DNA of 64,000 nucleotides from Lichenibacterium minor (GTDB taxonomy: Bacteria > Pseudomonadota > Alphaproteobacteria > Rhizobiales > Beijerinckiaceae). The DNA lies in the NCBI RefSeq assembly GCF_004137685.1, contig NZ_QYBB01000001.1:401057-465056 (forward strand), read 5' to 3'. The position numbers were made by a program, and so were the translations under genes. The notes under the pieces are model-generated. The model was given only the letters and a program-made list of their open reading frames with translations. It was not told the DNA's origin and searched no databases. Below, one piece after another: positions 37,417-55,966 of the stretch; within the stretch, counting starts at the first letter, position 1, and each line of letters starts with the position of its first letter.

Positions 37417-37490
37417 TGGGGGATAGTTCAACGGTAGAACAGCGGACTCTGACTCCGTCAATCTTGGTTCGAATCCAGGTCCCCCAGCCA
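37417..37490 (+). tRNA. tRNA-Gln (anticodon CTG)
   Basis: 74 nt including an encoded CCA end. Acceptor stem TGGGGGA/TCCCCCA with discriminator G, D arm around AGTTCAACGGTAGAAC, anticodon stem GCGGA/TCCGT with loop CTCTGAC (anticodon CTG at 34-36), T arm with GGTTCGAATCC. The 3' part (from 37,444) is the left attachment core of an 18.5-kb element; insertion leaves this gene intact. Confidence 0.96.
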
Positions 37491-37491
37491 A
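37444..37491 (+). repeat. attL core, 48-bp direct repeat
   Basis: Runs from the anticodon stem of tRNA-Gln (GGACTCTGACTCC...) through the T arm and CCA plus one A. Identical over 48 bp to 55,919-55,966; the sequences differ immediately outside (next base C here, A at the right copy). Confidence 0.93.
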
Positions 37492-44657: not shown

Positions 44658-45662
44658 ATGCTCCATAGCTACCGGCTCCGGCTTCATCGGGGCCGGTTCG
44701 CCCTCTACTGGCGGGAGGACGGCCGATCGCGGCGGTACTCCCTCGGCACCACGGAAAAGGTTGAGGCTGAAGTCCGCGCCGACGCGTTCATCCGAGCGAT
44801 GGCACAGGCGCGGGCGCCAACAATCACCATCGCCGAGGTATGGGAGCGGTATCGCGAGCGGCTTAAAGGCCGGCCGGCCTACACGACGATGGCCTATGAG
44901 TGGAAGCATCTGCTCTCATTCTTCGGCGATCTGCGAGCCTACCTCATCACCGAAGAGGCGTGCCGACGCTACATTGAATATCGGCGGGGCCAGGGCCGCA
45001 AGGACGGGACGATCCTGACGGAGCTGAACCGCCTCTCAAACGCACTGAACTACGCCGTCAAGGCAGGACTGCTTGACCGTGCGCCGGTCATCGTTCGGCC
45101 GCGCGCTCCACCGCCGCGGGATCGCTTCCTGACCAAGGCGGAGGCGCGCACCTTCCTGGACGGGATCGCGGCCCTACATGTTCGGCTGTTCTGCGTACTC
45201 GCGCTGGCGACTGCGGCCCGCCGGGAAGCCATCCTCGGGCTGACGTGGGATCGAATAGACATGGGACGGCGCCGGCTTCACCTCACAGACCCGAAAGCAC
45301 CAGAGACCGCGAAATCACGGGCCATCGTGCCGATCAACGACCGCTTGCACGCCGAGCTTTTGGCCGCGCGCCAGCGAGATCACATTGCCATGGGCTCCAC
45401 GGCGTTCGTCGTGCAGTACCGCGGCGGGCGCGTCGCCTCGCTCAAAACGGCGTTGGCGCAGACGTGCCGGCGCAGTGGGGTCGAAGGCGTCACCGCCCAT
45501 GTGTTCCGTCACACCGCCGCGGTTTGGATGGCTGAGGGCGGCGTGCCTATGGAAGAGATCGCACAATTCCTCGGGCACCGCGACGTGACCGTGACGCGAA
45601 AGGTCTATGCGCGGTTCAGCCCGGAGTACCTCCGCAAGGCGGCTGAATCGCTGGATTTCTAG
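44658..45662 (+). CDS. tyrosine recombinase (second, internal)
   Basis: 334 aa. N-terminal arm domain (LHRGRFALYWREDGRSRRYSLGT), SAM-like core-binding domain (about 55-140), then the catalytic domain with ATAARREAILGLTWDRID (Arg I), HVFRHTAAVWMA (His-x-x-Arg), FLGHRDVTVTRKVYARF (His/Trp position and nucleophilic Tyr). All catalytic residues are visible. It is distinct in sequence from the integrase at 54.5 kb. ATG 44,658 lies close behind the HTH gene. It could belong to a nested element or act as a resolvase. Confidence 0.88.
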   Translation: MLHSYRLRLHRGRFALYWREDGRSRRYSLGTTEKVEAEVRADAFIRAMAQARAPTITIAEVWERYRERLKGRPAYTTMAYEWKHLLSFFGDLRAYLITEEACRRYIEYRRGQGRKDGTILTELNRLSNALNYAVKAGLLDRAPVIVRPRAPPPRDRFLTKAEARTFLDGIAALHVRLFCVLALATAARREAILGLTWDRIDMGRRRLHLTDPKAPETAKSRAIVPINDRLHAELLAARQRDHIAMGSTAFVVQYRGGRVASLKTALAQTCRRSGVEGVTAHVFRHTAAVWMAEGGVPMEEIAQFLGHRDVTVTRKVYARFSPEYLRKAAESLDF

Positions 45663-45713: not shown

Positions 45714-46652
45714 TCATTGGATGGGTGCAAGTGCCGACCTGAAGCCAGCGCTGATTGCCTGCTGAATTTCACCTGTGAAGTGAAGATTCAAAGCTGCTTG
45801 CGACGGCACTCTGCCTATAGCAAAGCCTCTAGGGGTTTTACTCTCTTGCGTTGGACCGATCGTAATCAGCAGATCATGCGTCCGCATCCTACTTTCCGAG
45901 ATGAGCGGGTTAGCGCCCCCCCCCGTTGATATTGTCACCAACTTCCACATCGGGTTCACCGTACCCGTTGTTGTAACGATGAATTTGACCTCATATGAAA
46001 ATGCATTGTATTTCGTCTGTGATTTATCCAATGAATACGAGGTAGGTAAACTGTTGTAGGCTGCTAGAGCACTTTTCAGCCAGTCTCCTATGCCCAGATC
46101 TCCAAACAAAAGAGAGCTACCGTGCCTGTCCAAATCCTTATAAGGCGGCCCACCAGGTTGTCGGCACGATGAATCCTTTTCAACATCGATCGGCATCTTG
46201 AATTGACCGAGATCGTAAAGGAAAAGTAACTTCTCATTTCGTGTTGCTTGTGAGGACGCCGTAGCACCAACTGGGAGACTGAAACTCTGCGGCACCTTGA
46301 TTTGGTCCTGACCCTTAAAGGGAAGACTAGCCGTGCGTAATGTTTGATTGTAGGCGATATTTGCATTGAGAGATCCAGTCTCATCGACCTGCAACTGCAA
46401 CGTTTCTTGCGCCGCCCAATCGTTGGGTATGGAGTCCTCTATTTTCCCATATCGATATATTTTCTTAGGACCGTATAAGCTGACGGCTTTTCGAAGCTCA
46501 CAATATATACTCTTTTGGATGCGATAACTCATTGCATCATCTACGTCCGCTTCTTCGTACGGTTCATGCAGAGTCGGAACGCTAAGCCCGCAACCACCCA
46601 GTAAAGTTGATAGCGAGAACAATGATATAAAAATATTTCTGCTACTTTCCAT
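45714..46652 (-). CDS. AT-rich lipoprotein, function unknown
   Basis: 312 aa. N-terminal signal with lipobox LGGC (FISLFSLSTLLGGC). The mature chain is strand-rich (QETLQLQVDETGSLNANIAY, YEVKFIVTTTGTVNPMWKLV), without a recognised domain. Strongly AT-rich compared with the host, a sign of transfer. Its start overlaps the stop of the small upstream gene by 11 nt, so the two form an operon. Confidence 0.7.
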   Translation of the reverse strand: MESSRNIFISLFSLSTLLGGCGLSVPTLHEPYEEADVDDAMSYRIQKSIYCELRKAVSLYGPKKIYRYGKIEDSIPNDWAAQETLQLQVDETGSLNANIAYNQTLRTASLPFKGQDQIKVPQSFSLPVGATASSQATRNEKLLFLYDLGQFKMPIDVEKDSSCRQPGGPPYKDLDRHGSSLLFGDLGIGDWLKSALAAYNSLPTSYSLDKSQTKYNAFSYEVKFIVTTTGTVNPMWKLVTISTGGGANPLISESRMRTHDLLITIGPTQESKTPRGFAIGRVPSQAALNLHFTGEIQQAISAGFRSALAPIQ

Positions 46653-47178: not shown

Positions 47179-47859
47179 ATGGCAAATGGCAAGTTCGTCA
47201 GCTACCTCCGGGTCTCCACCGCCAAGCAGGGCGCCAGCGGCCTGGGAATGGATGCGCAGCGCACGGCGGTGACGGACTTCCTCAACGGCGGCCGTTGGTC
47301 GCTCATCGCCGAAGTGGTCGAGGTCGAGAGCGGTAAGAATGACGATCGCCCGAAGCTGGCCGAGGCCATGGCGCTGTGCCGGCTCCACGGCGCCACGCTG
47401 GTCATCGCGAAGTTGGACCGGCTGTCCCGCGATGCGCACTTCCTGCTTGGCCTTCAGAAGGCCGGCGTGCGGTTCGTCGCTGCCGACATGCCCGAAGCCA
47501 ATGAGATGGTGGTGGGGATCATGGCCGTTGTCGCTCAGGCCGAACGCAAGATGATCTCCGCCCGCACCAAGGCGGCGCTGGCGGCGGCCAAGGCTCGCGG
47601 CACGAAGCTCGGCGGCGATCGGGGCAACCTGGCCGTGGTCGGCGCCGCTGGCCGCGCCAAGGGCACTCAGGTCCGCCAGAGCAAGGCCAAGGCCCGCGCC
47701 GGGGACCTTGCCCCCATCCTGTCGTCATTGCAGGCGGACGGCGTCACAACGCTGCGGGGCCTCGCTGAGGCGTTGAACGCCCGTGAGATCCCCACGGCGC
47801 GCGGCGGCACATGGTCGGCGGTTCAGGTGCAACGCGTGCTGGCGACGATTGAAAGGTAG
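47179..47859 (+). CDS. serine recombinase of the resolvase/invertase type
   Basis: 226 aa. The N-terminal catalytic domain (about 1-140) has the nucleophile in FVSYLRVSTAKQGASGLGMD and the conserved LVIAKLDRLSRD; the long E-helix contains AEANEMVVGIMAVVAQAERKM-like residues (VVAQAERKMISARTKAALAA). The C-terminal part has a Recombinase-like/HTH end (VTTLRGLAEALNAREIPTAR, GGTWSAVQVQRVLATIER). Start ATG 47,179 rather than TTG 47,161. Stands alone between divergent and convergent AT-rich genes. Confidence 0.88.
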   Translation: MANGKFVSYLRVSTAKQGASGLGMDAQRTAVTDFLNGGRWSLIAEVVEVESGKNDDRPKLAEAMALCRLHGATLVIAKLDRLSRDAHFLLGLQKAGVRFVAADMPEANEMVVGIMAVVAQAERKMISARTKAALAAAKARGTKLGGDRGNLAVVGAAGRAKGTQVRQSKAKARAGDLAPILSSLQADGVTTLRGLAEALNAREIPTARGGTWSAVQVQRVLATIER

Positions 47860-47861
47860 AA

Positions 47862-48518
47862 CTAAGACGTTCGCAGTGTTTTGATGAGTGAGACGGCGGC
47901 CTCATTGAGCCTTGTAGCTTTGATCTCGATCGAAGCTGCACGGGCAACGGCAGAGTTATACCAAAACAGAGGTGGCTTCCCTTTATTTTTTCTAATATGG
48001 TCGAGGCAGTCGAAATAACCTGAAAGCTCTTCTTCAAACATAATTATGGGAGCGCTGATTTCGTCGATAAGGGGCAACTCGTTAAATGGGTCCCGGGGAT
48101 TAAGGCGGATCTGCCCAAATAGGACCTCATACAGACCTTCATAATTACCTTGCTCAAATATAATACGAAGCCTGCCGTCTCTCTCATGTCGTAAAACTCC
48201 CTGAACATGCGTCCTAATTTTCAGCGTATAAATTTGAATACGAGTGAGTATTACATGCCTTTTTTTGTCCAAATCGATTTTCTGCTCCCTCTCCTTATTT
48301 CTCTGCTCTTGCGTACTCACCCACAACGCCGTTCCAGCGGCGGCGAAGCTGCCTATACCGCTCAGCCATCCACCGTATGCTGCAACCCAATCGGGTGTCC
48401 AAGGCATCGCGCGAACAAGGCCATAGACCAGCATGAGGGATGGAACGGCAAGCACAGCGAACAAGAAGCGTTTGTCGCTATTCTTCAAGTCCGCCACGCC
48501 TAGCTCCACAAAATTCAC
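47862..48518 (-). CDS. membrane protein downstream of the tape-measure gene
   Basis: 218 aa. Two hydrophobic helices in the first third (FLFAVLAVPSLMLVYGLV; WVAAYGGWLSGIGSFAAAGT) followed by a charged, probably coiled-coil segment (STQEQRNKEREQKIDLDKKR) and a helical cytoplasmic domain. No family recognised. AT-rich. The start ATG overlaps the tape-measure stop by 4 nt, so both are in one leftward operon. Confidence 0.65.
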   Translation of the reverse strand: MNFVELGVADLKNSDKRFLFAVLAVPSLMLVYGLVRAMPWTPDWVAAYGGWLSGIGSFAAAGTALWVSTQEQRNKEREQKIDLDKKRHVILTRIQIYTLKIRTHVQGVLRHERDGRLRIIFEQGNYEGLYEVLFGQIRLNPRDPFNELPLIDEISAPIIMFEEELSGYFDCLDHIRKNKGKPPLFWYNSAVARAASIEIKATRLNEAAVSLIKTLRTS

Positions 48519-51500
48519 ATATGCCCGGTCCCGAGCAAGGCCGGTGACGGCATGCTAGGCTGAACGCCGTTGTTGCCGGCGAGCTTTCCACCCATCATGG
48601 TCTCTCCCATCTTGCCCGACAGACTGAGTTGAGCCAAGTGCTCCACCGTCCGCACCAACCCAAGGAAGTAGGTGGACGGCTCGATGATGATGGACGTAGT
48701 GTTGTGAACCTCAGCGGACCCGTTGACGCTCACCTGAGACGGCGCGACCGTCACCTGGAGCGGCTGCGCCGGACCCGCGGGCACCTGCCCGGCCGTTGTC
48801 AGCCGTTCGTTCGCCACCGCATTCCGGCCGCGCGTACCCTCGGGATCACGGTGGAACTCATCGGCCGCCCGGCGCCCCTGTTCCCACACGCTTTCGGGCA
48901 TCCCGGAGCGGAAGGGGTTGAAGCCGATCTTCCCATACTCCCTGTCGTGGAACGTGCTGAAGTCCATTCGACGCTTCAGCGCGGCGTCCGCATCGAACCG
49001 GCGGCGGATCTGCCCCTCCACATCGTTCTCCCGATCTCGCCGGGCCGTGCCGATATCGATGACGCTCTGAGCGGCGAAGGCGACATCACCCACGCCCGAC
49101 ACAATGCCCAGCCCGCGAGCCGCCATGCCGAGCAACTTGGCCCGACCGATGGCCTGAGCGGCTTCCGCAGCGGCTTTCTCGGCTTGGAAGCGAGCGCCGT
49201 TCACCGCCAGTTCCTCGGCGGTACGACCGGCCAGCGTGCCACTCTTGCCCGCAGTCTCCGCAGCCATCGCGGCGGCCTTGCTCCCGGCCTCAGCCGCCAC
49301 CGTGCCGGCGCGCTGCGCGGCAGTCTCGGCAGCCTTGGCGGCTTCACCCTTTCCGCCAGCGGTCTCCGCCGCCCTGGCCGCGGCGTTCATGGCGTCGGCA
49401 AGGCGCGAAGCTGCCTTGGCCGCAGCATCCTCGGCGCTGCCCTTGGCCGCCTGGGTGGCAAGCACCTTCTGCGCGGCAGCTTCGGCGCTGGTGGCCGCCT
49501 GAGCCGCCGCGTCCGCCGCCCGCTGCGCGACGCCGAGCGCCCGCTCAATCTCGGCAGTGGGGGGCACCAGCTTCCCGAGCAAGTCACCCGAGGCCAGCGC
49601 CCGCTTCTCCGCCTGGCCGATGGCCTCCGCCATGGCCGAGCTTGACCGCGCGATGGCCTGTTCCGCGTGCTCGCTCACCAGCGAGGCCAAGCGCGCATAC
49701 TTCTCCGCAGCCGTGGCCGCTGCCCGGTCGGCCGCGCCCGAAATCGTATCGAACTTGGCTGCGGCTTTGGCGGCGTCCGCCCCCACTTCCGCAAGCTTCG
49801 CCATGGCGTCAACTGCGGCGCTGTCCATCGCCCGCACGAAACTGGCGGAGCGTTCGGCGAACCGTTGCGCGCCCTCAGCGATGGCGTTCGCCTCGGCGCT
49901 GGCCCGTTCCGCCATGCCGTGCTGAAGGGTCGCCAGCGCGCTCCGCTGGCCCGCCTCGACAGCATCCGCCGCAGCGCTGGCCGATGCCTGTATGGCCCCT
50001 TCAGCCGCAGCGACCCGCGCCGCAGCCTGTTCCGCCCGAGCGACAGCAGCCTCAGCACCGGCCCCAAGGCCACGTCCGGCCGCCGCCCCCATGCCCGAAG
50101 CTGCATCCCTGGCCGCCGTCCCGGTGGCACGTAGCGCGGCCGTGGCACCGCCAAGCGCGTGTTCCGCCGTCGCCGCAGCTCCGCCGATCCCGACAAGCCG
50201 GCCGATCACAGGGACCGCCCTGCCCGCTGCCCCGCCGAGCCCGACAAGCGTCCCCATGATGGTCAGAAGCGGCCCGAGCGCTGCCGCTGCCATGGTCGCT
50301 TCCGTGCCGAACTCAACAACCTTCGGGTCGAGCGAGGCGACGGCGTCTAGCACCTTGACGATGCCACCCGCGACAGCGTCGAAGACGTGTTGCTCGGCCA
50401 TCTTTGAGACGACCATCTCGAAAGCGTTGTGGGCCTGTAGGTAGGCGCCTTCCAAGCTGCGGGCATGCTCCGCCGCCTGTCGGGATGCAATGCCGGCCTG
50501 CTCCTCGACGTACTGCTGAGGCGTGGGGGCGGGCGCCAGCGGGCCCTTCAGCCCCATCATCATCTCCCAATTCGACCCGTACTGGCGCTGGCCTTCGTTG
50601 ACGAACTCGTCTCGGGCCTCCTTGGTCTCCGGAGGCCTGAGGATCGGCATCACGCGGGGGGACTGCCGCTTCTCTCCGATCATCGACCAGATTTCCGGCG
50701 TCATTCGCCCGGTTTTGCGGATGTCTTCGATCATGCGCGGCACATCGGTGGAGCCGATGAACGAGTCCATGAACTTGTCGACGACCTTCTGAGCGATCTC
50801 GGGCTTGATTGGGTTTTTCGCCTTGCCCGTCGCCATGATGGCTTCGCGCCACTCGCCGCCCAGCACGTCGAGGTTATGGCCTTTGTTGATGTCGTCGCTT
50901 TGGAAAGCAGCCCATGCTTTCATCACTGCGGCATCCATACCCTTGTAGCCTTTCATCCCCGCTTGCTTGAGGAACGCTTCGGGGTTCATGCCGCCGGTCA
51001 TGTTCTGATAGTCGCGCAGGTTCAGCCCGAGCGAGGCGAACCCACCATAGGCGCTATTCTTCGGCGCGATGAACGAACCGATCATGGACCGCTGAGCGAC
51101 GGACGACTCGTCACCCCGGAAGCCCGCTTCCTTCTGTGTGGCGGACATCATCGCGATTTGGCCGAGGTCGAGATTGGAGAAGCGCGCGAGCGGCGCTGCC
51201 ATCTTCAGCGACTGCATCACCTCGTGATGCCCCTCGAAATTAGACGAGGTGTACATGGTCGACAGGACGTCGGCGAGGTGGCCGAACTTGTGGTTCAGCG
51301 CGTCCATCCCGAGAGCGTGGCCTTCCTTGTCTCGGGTTTCGATCGGCAGCGCGTTGGCGAGCGCGATGAGATCGTCCGTCGCTGTATGAGCGTCCGTGCG
51401 GTTCGCGATGGCGAGGATGGCCGCCTGGTTGGCCAGCGCCTCGGCGGGAATCATCGACCGCGCCGGATCGTTCGTCGCGGTGTCCTGATACCCGGCCTTG

Positions 51501-51913
51501 ACCGCGGCCAGCACGGAATCCTTGTACTCCTTCACATTGACGAGGCCCTTCGGCAGGCCGCCAACGCCGTCGTAAGCGACCGCAGCCGCGGCGTTTGCCG
51601 CTTCCATCTGCGCCGCCGCGTAAGCCTTGGTGGACATGGTCAGGTTGTCGACGGAGCGGGCCCGCTGTTCCAGCACGCCTCGCATCGTGTTCTCAATGCG
51701 CGAGAATTCCAACGCCTTGTCGGCCATCTCCTTCAGCCCGGCGACGACAGGCATGGTGATGCCGAGCGTCATCCTTTGGCCGTGCTCGGCCATCTTCGCC
51801 CCCATCTTCGCCATGGCACTCTCGTGCCCAGCGACCTTGTGGGACATGTGGCTCAACGGTTCGGACAGATGGTCAATGAGGTGGATGACCGCCGCGACCT
51901 CGAAAGTGTTCAT
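48515..51913 (-). CDS. phage tail tape-measure-like protein
   Basis: 1,132 aa. The N-terminal part (MNTFEVAAVIHLIDHLSEPL, MGAKMAEHGQRMTLGITMPV) is typical of TP901-type tape-measure proteins; the middle is a long Ala-rich coiled-coil region (about residues 560-960) with hydrophobic stretches (LGPLLTIMGTLVGLGGAAG). It sets tail length in siphophages and also occurs in prophage remnants. No other tail, capsid or terminase gene is near it, so here it is an orphan. GC and codon use are host-like, unlike its AT-rich neighbour. Confidence 0.8.
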   Translation of the reverse strand: MNTFEVAAVIHLIDHLSEPLSHMSHKVAGHESAMAKMGAKMAEHGQRMTLGITMPVVAGLKEMADKALEFSRIENTMRGVLEQRARSVDNLTMSTKAYAAAQMEAANAAAAVAYDGVGGLPKGLVNVKEYKDSVLAAVKAGYQDTATNDPARSMIPAEALANQAAILAIANRTDAHTATDDLIALANALPIETRDKEGHALGMDALNHKFGHLADVLSTMYTSSNFEGHHEVMQSLKMAAPLARFSNLDLGQIAMMSATQKEAGFRGDESSVAQRSMIGSFIAPKNSAYGGFASLGLNLRDYQNMTGGMNPEAFLKQAGMKGYKGMDAAVMKAWAAFQSDDINKGHNLDVLGGEWREAIMATGKAKNPIKPEIAQKVVDKFMDSFIGSTDVPRMIEDIRKTGRMTPEIWSMIGEKRQSPRVMPILRPPETKEARDEFVNEGQRQYGSNWEMMMGLKGPLAPAPTPQQYVEEQAGIASRQAAEHARSLEGAYLQAHNAFEMVVSKMAEQHVFDAVAGGIVKVLDAVASLDPKVVEFGTEATMAAAALGPLLTIMGTLVGLGGAAGRAVPVIGRLVGIGGAAATAEHALGGATAALRATGTAARDAASGMGAAAGRGLGAGAEAAVARAEQAAARVAAAEGAIQASASAAADAVEAGQRSALATLQHGMAERASAEANAIAEGAQRFAERSASFVRAMDSAAVDAMAKLAEVGADAAKAAAKFDTISGAADRAAATAAEKYARLASLVSEHAEQAIARSSSAMAEAIGQAEKRALASGDLLGKLVPPTAEIERALGVAQRAADAAAQAATSAEAAAQKVLATQAAKGSAEDAAAKAASRLADAMNAAARAAETAGGKGEAAKAAETAAQRAGTVAAEAGSKAAAMAAETAGKSGTLAGRTAEELAVNGARFQAEKAAAEAAQAIGRAKLLGMAARGLGIVSGVGDVAFAAQSVIDIGTARRDRENDVEGQIRRRFDADAALKRRMDFSTFHDREYGKIGFNPFRSGMPESVWEQGRRAADEFHRDPEGTRGRNAVANERLTTAGQVPAGPAQPLQVTVAPSQVSVNGSAEVHNTTSIIIEPSTYFLGLVRTVEHLAQLSLSGKMGETMMGGKLAGNNGVQPSMPSPALLGTGHM

Positions 51914-52131: not shown

Positions 52132-52869
52132 ATGCCCGTAACGCTAGAAGTCGAGTCGAACACACTTGTGATAGTTGGCAACTTCAACCCTGCTATATTT
52201 CAGCCTTATTGGTTTTTTTCCCAAGACTTGATCGGCGAGGATGAAGCTCAGAAGGCGCAAATATCGGTGGTACACCCCGATATTACGTCCTTTCAAACTG
52301 AATCCTTTCAAATTACGGTTGAGCCTGAGCGGGTGAGTTTGATTCCGCTTGAAACAATTGGTATTGGCATTTTTGACTTAGCTCTTCGTTTGTTTGGGGA
52401 CTGCCTCCCTCAAACACCCTTACGAGCACTGGGTATAAACTACTTATCCCATTTCCGAGTTAGCTCGGAAAAGGTTCAAAATAGCTTTGGCGATATACTG
52501 GCGCCAAAGGAACCTTGGGGCAAGTGGGGTGAGCAGCTAAATCAACCGGCCCCGAAAGGCTCACAAAATCGCATCTCAAAAGAAACAAGGGCTGGCGGTC
52601 TAAGGTCAATCAGCATGACCAAGTATGGGCGCGATGATGAGAAAAAGGGGTTCACACAGGTTAAAATAGAGCCCTCTGCAACTTATAGACCGGGGGTCTA
52701 CGTTGAGGTAAACAATCACTTTGATCTTGAAAAGCCTATAAAGGGCGAAGATAATTCTTCTATTTTTGCAAGACTCGGCGATGTTTACGACAGTTCTATC
52801 GAGCAGTCGAAGAGCTTCGTCGAGCATTTTATGACGACGTGTAGCATCATTGAGCGCGATCATGTCTGA
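52132..52869 (+). CDS. first gene of the MBL cassette, unknown protein
   Basis: 245 aa, soluble, AT-rich, no recognised domain. Striking ordered segments are LVIVGNFNPAIFQPYWFFSQ, TESFQITVEPERVSLIPLET and TKYGRDDEKKGFTQVKIEPS with YRPGVYVEVNNHFDL, which suggest a conserved beta-rich fold. The start ATG 52,132 has only a weak ribosome site; the frame is open to 52,075. It overlaps the second gene by 8 nt. Function unknown; see the cassette finding. Confidence 0.7.
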   Translation: MPVTLEVESNTLVIVGNFNPAIFQPYWFFSQDLIGEDEAQKAQISVVHPDITSFQTESFQITVEPERVSLIPLETIGIGIFDLALRLFGDCLPQTPLRALGINYLSHFRVSSEKVQNSFGDILAPKEPWGKWGEQLNQPAPKGSQNRISKETRAGGLRSISMTKYGRDDEKKGFTQVKIEPSATYRPGVYVEVNNHFDLEKPIKGEDNSSIFARLGDVYDSSIEQSKSFVEHFMTTCSIIERDHV

Positions 52870-53458
52870 GATATTCGCCATCGATAGAAATGACTTCAAC
52901 TTGGACTCACACACCATTCGTGGTGAACGTGCTCTCGAAGTTGCCAAGCGTTTTCGTCCGGTTGATGAATCTGCGCTACGATTCTCAAAGTTTCAGCAGT
53001 CTCAGACACAAGGGCGTGAGGTGCCGCGCCCTTCGAAAGAAGCGATACAAGCAACACTGCAATCAATCTCTACTCGAACGACAGATACGAGATTGCGTCT
53101 CCCAACTGCATTCGTTGCCAAGCAAGAATGGGAAGGTTGCGTCCAAGACGTGGCAGAAGGTCAAGTGCTCGCGCAATTAGTAGACATTAGATTAAGTGAT
53201 GCCCCCTTCACGATAGCTAGCATCCCACTTGAGACCTTTGCAGTTCGAGATAGAAAACGGCTTAGAACCGGATCTATATTCAGATGGGCAATAGGAACGG
53301 AAATTAATGGAAGGACGCAGCGGAATGCGTATCGAATAGCGATTAGGGACTTTCCAGCCTGGACTAGGCGAGAGATCCTGACATCTGAATCTGAGGGCCT
53401 TCAACTGGCCCAGGCTTTGAGCGCTCTGAAAAATGGCTCTGACGCATCCGGAATCTGA
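52862..53458 (+). CDS. second gene of the MBL cassette, unknown protein
   Basis: 198 aa, soluble, basic and Arg-rich (SISTRTTDTRLRLPTAFVAK; FAVRDRKRLRTGSIFRWAIG), no domain recognised. The last third (PAWTRREILTSESEGLQLAQ, ALSALKNG) is helical. ATG 52,862 lies within the end of the first gene (8-nt overlap), and its own end overlaps the MBL gene by 26 nt, so all three are translationally coupled. AT-rich, foreign composition. Confidence 0.7.
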   Translation: MSEIFAIDRNDFNLDSHTIRGERALEVAKRFRPVDESALRFSKFQQSQTQGREVPRPSKEAIQATLQSISTRTTDTRLRLPTAFVAKQEWEGCVQDVAEGQVLAQLVDIRLSDAPFTIASIPLETFAVRDRKRLRTGSIFRWAIGTEINGRTQRNAYRIAIRDFPAWTRREILTSESEGLQLAQALSALKNGSDASGI

Positions 53459-54542
53459 CGAAATAGAAGTTACGGTGATTGGCCCTGGTTTTGGTGAGTC
53501 TGTTTTGATCCACCTTGGTGATCGAAAATGGATCACCATCGACTGTTGTGTGGATCGGAATACGAAACAGAATGTTCCTCTCGCCTATCTTGCGGAGATA
53601 GGGGCGGACGTCGCGTCTGATATCAAACTTGTGATCGCATCACATTGGCACGACGATCACATCAAAGGGCTGTTTGACCTCCTAACCGCAGCGAAGTCGG
53701 CACGCTTCTGCTGCTCTGAGGCGCTCACAAGTGTTGAGTTTTGTGCCTATGCTGTCCGACATGCGAAAAACATCACAAGACGCTTTTCGGGAGGAGCTTC
53801 AGAGTTTCTTCAAGTGCTCAGGCTTCTTGCAGAACGGAAGAATTGTCCGGAGTTCGCTGGAAAAGACAGAAGGCTTTGGCTTTTACCGAAAGACACGATC
53901 TCCCACGGTGTAGACTGCGAGGTCTACACCTTAGCTCCCAGCAACGGTCAGTTCGCGCTGTTTCTCACCGAGATAAGCAAAATTTTAGCAGATCCAAGCC
54001 ATGATCGTTTTCGAGCACAAGCAGATAATCAAAATAACTTGTCGGTAGTCTGCCAAATTCTCTTCGGTGAAGAATCAATACTGTTAGGTGCTGATCTCGA
54101 GAACCAACGGGACGTAACATTAGGCTGGGAATCTATACTAAGTAGTTTCGGTAGACCTCGTCAGACTTCAAGTTTCTTCAAGATCCCTCATCACGGCTCT
54201 GCGAATGCACATAACGACCGTGTTTGGACGGACATGCTTGTGTCCGACGTATTTTCGGTCGTGACGCCTTATGATCGTCTCGTACATCCATTGCCCACTC
54301 AGACGGATCGTGCACGCATAAATGCTTTTACGCCCCATGCGTACATTACCTCTGACGAGGCAAACAAGAATTTTAGACACGACGACAAAAGCGTAAATGC
54401 AAAGCTTAAGGACATAGGAGCAGTTGTGCAGGTCTCACAGATAGCGCCTGGCCGTGTAACGCGTAGATGGAAGCTTGGCGGTAGACCTTCACTTTCCATG
54501 AGCCAGATGGCACGCCCTCTCAATCCGCCTATCTCGGTTTAA
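53433..54542 (+). CDS. metallo-beta-lactamase-fold protein, ComEC C-terminal-like
   Basis: 369 aa. MBL fold with the metal motif SHWHDDH (H71, H73, D75, H76), later LLGADLE (D221) and FKIPHHGSANAHND (H253-H254), the pattern of the ComEC/Rec2 MBL domain. No signal peptide or membrane helix, so it acts in the cytoplasm. Enzymes of this type are phosphodiesterases or nucleases in several cases. Start ATG 53,433 within the end of the second cassette gene. Its last 4 nt overlap the convergent integrase end. Likely effector of the cassette; inference. Confidence 0.85.
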   Translation: MALTHPESDEIEVTVIGPGFGESVLIHLGDRKWITIDCCVDRNTKQNVPLAYLAEIGADVASDIKLVIASHWHDDHIKGLFDLLTAAKSARFCCSEALTSVEFCAYAVRHAKNITRRFSGGASEFLQVLRLLAERKNCPEFAGKDRRLWLLPKDTISHGVDCEVYTLAPSNGQFALFLTEISKILADPSHDRFRAQADNQNNLSVVCQILFGEESILLGADLENQRDVTLGWESILSSFGRPRQTSSFFKIPHHGSANAHNDRVWTDMLVSDVFSVVTPYDRLVHPLPTQTDRARINAFTPHAYITSDEANKNFRHDDKSVNAKLKDIGAVVQVSQIAPGRVTRRWKLGGRPSLSMSQMARPLNPPISV

Positions 54543-55726
54543 AAGCCCTTCGCGAACGTCTCGACGTGCTTCGCCGCCTTGCGCTTCCGCTCGTCATCCG
54601 CGTGCAGGTAGACCATAGTCGTTTTCAGGTCGGCGTGTCCAAGGAGCGCCTGCACAGCCCGTACGTCCGCGCCGCCCGCGAGCGACTGTGTCGCAGCGCT
54701 ATGGCGGAAGACGTAGGGACTGAAGCGCGGTACGCCTGCCCTGCCCGCAATGCGGTCGAGCTGCTTCGCGATTCCGACAAGGTGCTGTCCCGTCATGCGC
54801 CCTATGAAGACGTAGGGATTCGCAGCCTGTCGGTAGTCGTGAACGCGTTTGAGCACCTCGACGGCCGCGTCGGACAAGGGCACGGTTCGCTTCCCCGTCT
54901 TCCCCACTACGCGCATCGTGCGGGCGCTCAGGTCGACGTTATCCCATGTCACGGTGCGCGCCTCGCCAGGCCGCAGGCCGCACAGCAGGGAGATGCGCAG
55001 AAGGCCCGCAAGGTGGGGCGACACCTCCCCCGCGGCTTCCATGCTCGCCAAGGCCTTCCCGAGCTTTTCGACTTCCGGGCTGGTCAGCACCCGCTGTTCC
55101 TTGGCCTCCGCATCCTTGTTCCGGGGCAGCTTCGCGAGCGAAGCCGGATTGTGGTGCGACGGGTCGAGGTGCTTCGCGCGGACGGCATAGTTGAACACGG
55201 CCTTGATCAGCGTGACGACGTAGCTCTGATTCCGCGTCTGCCCCGCCATGCTCGCGTGCAGCGCCTCGACGTCGACCGGCGACACGTCCTGTAGGGCCTT
55301 GCTGCCGATGCCGACCTCGGGACCGTTGTCGACCTGGCGCGTGAACACGAGTCGGGTGAAGCGGTCCTCATAGTCGGCATATGTCGCCGCGGACCACTCC
55401 GGCTTTTTGAGAGCCATCCATTCGCGCGTGCAGGCTTCAAAGGTCATGCACTTCGCGGCTGGCGGGCTGATGAGGTCGGTTCCCTTGCGCGCCGCCTGTA
55501 GGACATCGGCGGCCTTCGCCCTCGCGTCCTTGAACGTGTGCTCCGCGGTTGAGCCGAGGTTCACCCGCCGCGACTGCCCGTCCACCCGATACTGCACCGT
55601 GTAGGCCTTGGACGTGGGATAGACGATGACGCCGAAGCCCGGCTCGCCAGCGTCCCACACGATCGCCCGCTTGCCTTCGAACTTCAGCCCGTCGACCACT
55701 CGCTGAGAGAGCTTCATCGTCGGCAT
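54539..55726 (-). CDS. tyrosine integrase of the tRNA-Gln element
   Basis: 395 aa, P4-like family. N-terminal DUF4102-type arm-binding domain (MKLSQRVVDGLKFEGKRAIV, WDAGEPGFGVIVYPTSKAYT), core-binding domain (about 105-205), and catalytic domain: LLCGLRPGEARTVTWDNVD (Arg I), VVGKTGKRTVPLSDAA (Lys), YVFRHSAATQSLAGG (His-x-x-Arg), ALLGHADLKTTMVYLHADDE (His and nucleophilic Tyr). Complete set of catalytic residues. The start is ATG 55,724-55,726 (MPTMKLSQ); the frame is open to 55,843. Its 5' end faces attR 193 bp away, with arm-like repeats in between. Confidence 0.95.
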   Translation of the reverse strand: MPTMKLSQRVVDGLKFEGKRAIVWDAGEPGFGVIVYPTSKAYTVQYRVDGQSRRVNLGSTAEHTFKDARAKAADVLQAARKGTDLISPPAAKCMTFEACTREWMALKKPEWSAATYADYEDRFTRLVFTRQVDNGPEVGIGSKALQDVSPVDVEALHASMAGQTRNQSYVVTLIKAVFNYAVRAKHLDPSHHNPASLAKLPRNKDAEAKEQRVLTSPEVEKLGKALASMEAAGEVSPHLAGLLRISLLCGLRPGEARTVTWDNVDLSARTMRVVGKTGKRTVPLSDAAVEVLKRVHDYRQAANPYVFIGRMTGQHLVGIAKQLDRIAGRAGVPRFSPYVFRHSAATQSLAGGADVRAVQALLGHADLKTTMVYLHADDERKRKAAKHVETFAKGF

Positions 55727-55745
55727 GAATGGGGCCCTCCGCCTG

Positions 55746-55803
55746 CTTACCCGGTAGCGCTCCAGATCAATGGACATCCGATCGGGTAAGCGATGGGTAA
55801 GCA
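55746..55803. promoter_or_regulatory. putative integrase arm-binding sites, right end
   Basis: GCTTACCC (inverted) at 55,746-55,753 and GGGTAAGC at 55,785-55,792 and 55,796-55,803, between the integrase start and attR. Same octamer as near attL. Binding here could also repress the integrase promoter. Confidence 0.6.
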
Positions 55804-55918
55804 GATGGCGCAAAGCCGCCCAATGGTCAACAAACGCCTGCAACGCAGCTGGTATTGAAAAAGCTAGAGAATTTCAGCTTGGCAAAGATCGCCAAACCCC
55901 CGCAAACCCTGCTTTTTT

Positions 55919-55966
55919 GGACTCTGACTCCGTCAATCTTGGTTCGAATCCAGGTCCCCCAGCCAA
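55919..55966 (+). repeat. attR core, 48-bp direct repeat of the tRNA-Gln 3' end
   Basis: Identical to 37,444-37,491. The 5' part of the tRNA is missing here, so this is not a tRNA gene but the right junction of the element. Confidence 0.93.

Follow-up and report, generated by a model that had tools for sequence, protein, structure and literature searches.

A conserved three-gene mobile cassette ending in a ComEC-type metallo-beta-lactamase-fold protein, a candidate anti-phage system

Here we describe a cassette of three overlapping genes, A, B and C, in the genome of Lichenibacterium minor (assembly GCF_004137685.1, contig NZ_QYBB01000001.1), located within a stretch of 64,000 nucleotides that was analysed as a whole and is referred to below as the window. 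All three genes lie on the forward strand. Gene 1 (A, 52132..52869) encodes a two-lobed alpha+beta protein of 245 amino acids, aligned here with its family of 59 members and predicted to act as a sensor or trigger. Gene 2 (B, 52862..53458) encodes a protein of 198 amino acids that is modelled as a tail, an OB-like (oligonucleotide/oligosaccharide-binding) barrel and a helix, and that is predicted to be an adaptor or gate. Gene 3 (C, 53433..54542) encodes a protein of 369 amino acids with a ComEC-type metallo-beta-lactamase (MBL) fold, which matches Lactamase_B, LmuA and RTasMBL and is the predicted DNase effector. The coordinates confirm the overlaps that an earlier note on this DNA had read, 8 nt between A and B and 26 nt between B and C. 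That note had also called the cassette far more AT-rich than its flanks, and this part stands, the GC content being 48.2% in the cassette, 60.6% in the genomic island that carries it and 67.4% in the window; only two of 616 equally long sliding windows are as AT-rich, and both overlap the cassette. The composition is not unique, however, since at a scale of 1 kb equally AT-rich DNA (45.6% GC) is found around 46-47 kb. Another AT-rich gene of the island, at 45714-46652 of the window on the reverse strand, encodes 312 amino acids, has codon-position GC values of 0.50/0.44/0.48 and appears lipoprotein-like by eye.

A, B and C form a rare, patchy and inseparable module, as is evident from the counts of their co-occurrence in genomes, viral contigs, plasmids and the window's own phylum. 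The A profile, searched against a genome collection of 84,980 species, returned 49 loci, two of which (L039 and L051) are cut by a contig end, and at 44 of the 47 evaluable loci the cassette is complete and in the order A, B, C, the exceptions being L045, L047 and L049. Within these 44 loci, B was identified by phmmer in 38 (weakest E 0.022) and by position and eye in the other six, and the frame of C is broken or truncated in three (L010, L020 and L033). These 44 genome loci span 14 phyla, one of them archaeal and represented by a small contig of a metagenome-assembled genome. An independent search of viral contigs with C gave 35 loci, 26 of which have a close C; A and B lie directly upstream of it in all 24 that can be evaluated (L098 and L099 being cut by contig edges), which become 20 once the repeats L084, L086, L092 and L095 are removed. 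The remaining nine viral loci have only a remote MBL, which by eye looks secreted in most cases, and lack both A and B. C (P0003) and a relative of A (P0009) each match two of 72,556 plasmid records, the same two in both cases and both complete triads, while neither has a match among 50,697 phage records. In the phylum of the window, A occurs in five of 349 genomes including its own, and the other four all hold complete triads.

The distinct complete triads, that of the window included, number 68 from bacteria, prophages and plasmids, and no pair is more than 95% identical across all three proteins; a lack of joint conservation outside this island would have refuted the reading of the earlier note by its own criterion, and this check thus came out in its favour. 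Evolutionary distances in the three families are correlated (r = 0.737 for A-B, 0.790 for A-C and 0.795 for B-C, each reached by none of 500 permutations), and this correlated divergence shows joint inheritance. The genes are also closely packed, with a spacing of 10 nt or less in 64 of 67 cassettes for A-B and in 57 of 67 for B-C, as measured from longest-frame starts. When 130 neighbouring proteins (of 133 listed) were scanned, no PADLOC family matched more than two of them and, among the Pfam matches listed, none matched more than four (an integrase), so there is no fourth gene that is common to the cassettes.

The third protein is the one whose relatives are most readily recognised. C matches Lactamase_B in Pfam (1.8e-6) and PHROG 28593, a family of unknown function (7e-34), and a profile search of the PDB returns the MBL domain of ComEC (9ic4, 1.9e-14). 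The closest PADLOC models are LmuA (9.9e-13, a match for which the library supplies no cut-off) and RTasMBL, a reverse transcriptase-associated MBL (2.5e-12); across the family these are matched by 38 and 37 of 41 members, respectively. The full MBL metal site that the earlier note had pointed out is present in the motifs SHWHDDH, GAD and PHHGS, and the residues D37, H71, H73, D75, H76, D221, H253 and H254 do not vary among the 41 aligned members. From its kinship to ComEC, LmuA and the reverse transcriptase-associated MBL, C is likely a nuclease effector, and it is predicted to be soluble and cytoplasmic from a reading of its N-terminus by eye rather than from a computed prediction.

In a quickly built tree of 88 MBL proteins, the 65 cassette proteins fall on one side of a branch with a Shimodaira-Hasegawa-like approximate likelihood ratio test (SH-aLRT) value of 94, apart from the LmuA-like, L115-L118 and ComEC-type proteins, with some rows being long-branched. 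The distance between the HxHxDH and HHGS motifs has a median of 179 residues across the cassette proteins (n=69, range 166-188), compared with 222 in LmuA-like proteins (n=3), 201.5 in the L115-L118 type (n=4) and 117 in ComEC-type proteins (n=15, range 27-198; three of 18 are without the motifs). When C is aligned with ComEC-type MBLs, the extra residues are placed at two sites, and they are shorter than in the three LmuA-like proteins. The HHGS motif is followed by HP in 17 of the 25 non-cassette MBLs compared, whereas a loose motif scan of the 69 cassette MBLs finds LP in 63 and HP in 11; given this change from HP to LP in most cassettes, the surroundings of the active site may differ.

Other MBL proteins were seen along the way. 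The host genome encodes a separate DUF4131 (ComEC-type) protein of 778 amino acids, as well as a second, divergent MBL on its contig C198 (L002/L172; L172:1302-2447, reverse strand) that is 28% identical to C. The gene for the latter ends an overlapping three-gene operon whose products have 252, 167 and 381 amino acids, the first two of them without a profile match to A or B, and this operon is possibly a parallel system. At another locus (L117:3-1343 and 1453-2517), an MBL gene stands after a ThiF/E1-JAB-fusion-like protein and before a membrane-like protein, an arrangement that may be of the 6A-MBL type.

For A and B, nothing above noise was found in Pfam, NCBIfam, PADLOC or PHROG. The first two genes had been described as unrecognised, and so they remain in these libraries, hence with no match to a housekeeping or tail family. 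Searches with whole families gave the same picture: each Pfam family matches at most one of the 59 A-family members (best E 0.006) and at most one of the 45 B-family members (best E 0.018). The model of B has an N-terminal segment of about 46 residues at low confidence, which is likely disordered, followed by an OB-like barrel at residues 83-163 and a C-terminal helix. By profile, B is unrelated to the DUF4131 domain of ComEC (P = 0.12 over 16 columns). A is modelled confidently by AlphaFold2 as two alpha+beta lobes with a predicted local distance difference test (pLDDT) score of 92.6, and its family, aligned over 59 members, has the motif GNFNPAIFQPxW. Profile comparison aligns 67 columns of A with the TIGR04255 'sporadic' family (22 family sequences; P = 0.0019, probability 14%), where four control comparisons gave P values of 0.28-0.51, but the likeness is too weak for membership and the NCBIfam scan of A gave no match. 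A TIGR04255 'sporadic' protein is encoded elsewhere in the host genome (G000:C137:7283-8047, reverse strand, 2.1e-16).

A-like genes (E 5e-8 to 9e-7) also occur with other partners and without an MBL, at the three genome loci that lack the complete cassette. There the A-like gene is followed by one for a protein of about 90 amino acids and then by one for a protein of about 305 amino acids (L045:7974-9829, L047:567-2438 and L049:8001-9876). The larger partner is an 'LTQSCDLVRR' protein, and that of L045 is without a Pfam match. This arrangement is an unnamed sister system of the cassette, and because the three A-like genes have other partners and no MBL, in the manner of a swappable front end, A is likely the sensor.

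How such an effector could be kept in check is best considered against the systems already described. PMC12799240 describes MBL nucleases as recurring across Hachiman, AVAST, Lamassu, DRT and Canu, accompanied in every case by a protease; those of Hachiman and AVAST have insertions that hold them closed until the partner protease opens them, the Canu nuclease is activated by a caspase complex, and HamM and CanC are reported to act as DNases once activated. The gated nuclease-protease pairs presented there (Hachiman, Avs1a, Lamassu and DRT) are like the cassette in having a ComEC-like MBL whose HxHxDH and HHGS motifs are separated by additional residues, and in occurring in mobile and defence loci. 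Unlike them, the cassette has no trypsin-type motif nearby and two unrelated partner genes, and its nuclease gene comes last, whereas in the pairs the nuclease is typically upstream (PMC12799240). Against the curated Avs1a family, C scores 24.4 bits, below the cut-off of 420. Canu (CanABC) is closer in layout, with three genes, the MBL nuclease downstream and predicted dual inserts, but CanA is a caspase (PMC12799240), while the A and B families have no recurrent Pfam match. Neither A nor B has a caspase match in Pfam, the neighbours not having been scanned with a dedicated caspase profile and their Pfam listing covering 25 of 137 families. The motif of trypsin-type proteases, G[DN]SG[GS]P, is absent from open reading frames of more than 150 amino acids within 4 kb of 67 cassettes, by a crude scan in which 31 of the 67 had 4 kb on both sides. 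As the insertions of C are shorter and no protease was found, we infer that the opening falls to A and B.

Two known families were also tried as a home for C and rejected. The 6A-MBL anti-phage system (NCBIfam NF058524) likewise has an MBL-fold defence protein, but C, at 27.5 bits, falls short of the cut-off of 220; no paper naming 6A-MBL was found in the literature searched. The DNA-uptake protein ComEC/Rec2 has the fold and motifs of its MBL domain in common with C, but C, at 369 amino acids, is without the channel domain and scores 18.6 bits with TIGR00361, for which the cut-off is 190.

The locations of the cassette bring in the question of defence more directly. At five of the 24 viral loci (L089, L090, L094, L095 and L096, among which L094-L096 are near relatives), its neighbours on either side are gpA and the portal gene. 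At L094, gpA (PF05840, 4.5e-114) stands on one side and on the other the portal gene (PF04860), which follows terminase and GPO; the corresponding neighbours were recognised by Pfam at L090 and by similarity at L089, L095 and L096, the gpA of L089 being cut by the contig end. In the P2-like phages of E. coli, the cos-proximal gpA-gpQ interval is a hotspot for anti-phage systems (PMC9122126), and the main text of that source mentions neither MBL nor ComEC. A PADLOC scan of 20 large neighbouring proteins, drawn from 16 genome loci, gave matches for ten proteins from six loci, though these neighbours were chosen by hand without a control set and six of 16 is not an enrichment value. Hma genes adjoin the cassette at L004, L005 and L008, which form one related group, and do so on both sides at L005. 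DISARM/type IIG-like genes and Druantia-like genes stand on the two sides of the cassette at L043, a type I restriction-modification system lies near it at L024, and RT_UG29 (DRT) and MzaA are present at L034. The proposal that this is an undescribed defence system is thus supported by the P2-like gpA-portal hotspot and by the defence neighbours at six of the 16 loci examined, and no description of an A+B+C cassette was found in the literature searched.

In L. minor itself, the cassette belongs to an island bounded by a 48-bp direct repeat, the 3' part of tRNA-Gln(CTG), whose copies are 18,475 bp apart, with the left attachment site at 37444..37491 and the right at 55919..55966. A tyrosine integrase (54539..55843, reverse strand; Phage_integrase 1.8e-30) lies downstream of the cassette, at the island's right end. 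Just upstream, on the opposite strand, is a phage tail tape-measure-like protein (48515..51913, reverse strand; PhageMin_Tail 1.8e-9 at 50963-51439). The island with its terminal integrase and the phage-like neighbour are therefore as they had been read in the earlier note. A second tyrosine integrase (PF00589) and a serine resolvase (PF00239) lie within the island, at 45126-45614 and 47197-47604 of the window, and suggest nested or composite elements.

For this cassette we infer a defence role, a nuclease activity and gating. The explanation that we favour, and think probable, is that A, B and C make up one conserved mobile operon that acts as an anti-phage system, in which C is a DNase gated by A and B without a protease. 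In this model, A would recognise a phage product or state and release C; B, through its flexible tail or its barrel, would bind C, with the active site either kept closed or fed nucleic acid; and C, as a soluble ComEC-type DNase, would cut DNA and harm the infected cell. More tentatively, the cassette may even stand for a new class of defence, a ComEC-type MBL DNase gated by the direct binding of two partners instead of proteolysis, where B would use its tail and OB barrel to plug the active site or to load it, and A would be a swappable sensor of new fold that is also wired to an MBL-free set of partners; this more detailed proposal is possible but doubtful. New here would be the families of A and B, together with an arrangement that is free of a protease; the kind of effector is already known.

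MBL-fold enzymes are versatile, and a defence system of the same three genes could instead employ C as an RNA-cutting enzyme or as a hydrolase of a nucleotide signal or small molecule, the signal being bound by A or B. The weak fold matches of A do include ligand-binding helix-grip proteins, and the LP after HHGS in most cassettes would fit a different active-site surround, but we consider this unlikely in view of the closest profiles of C, which are ComEC, LmuA and RTasMBL, and of its relatives HamM and CanC, which are reported to be activated DNases (PMC12799240). A module for the maintenance of mobile elements, working by toxin-antitoxin-like addiction or the processing of transfer DNA and having no anti-phage role, would account for the presence of the cassette on an island, on prophages and on plasmids, for an effector that comes last in an overlapping operon, and for the resemblance of C to the DNA-uptake nuclease ComEC. 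Such a module is nevertheless quite unlikely: a reading of A, B and C shows no membrane channel, profile comparison sets B apart from the DUF4131 domain of ComEC, the host carries its own 778-residue protein of that type, and at L168 the cassette is flanked by core-like genes, where inspection by eye showed no integrase.

The anti-Pycsar nuclease has an MBL fold too, so that the cassette might be imagined as a phage-carried counter-defence enzyme that similarly destroys the immune signals of the host. Phage anti-CBASS and anti-Pycsar nucleases have been reported (PMC9117128), and the cassette is frequent on viral and prophage contigs. It is found as well, however, in a chromosomal Hma locus, in a DISARM-like locus and on plasmids, the search of phage records came back empty, and the position that it takes in P2-like elements is an accessory-defence hotspot (PMC9122126), all of which makes a counter-defence role improbable.

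Returning to the favoured reading of a gated anti-phage operon, a widespread cassette that has the same kind of effector as known systems, two unknown partner families and no detected protease would suggest a second route by which such effectors are armed. The defence repertoire would gain two protein families, and the combination of A, B and C offers a testable marker, with 68 distinct loci available to choose from.
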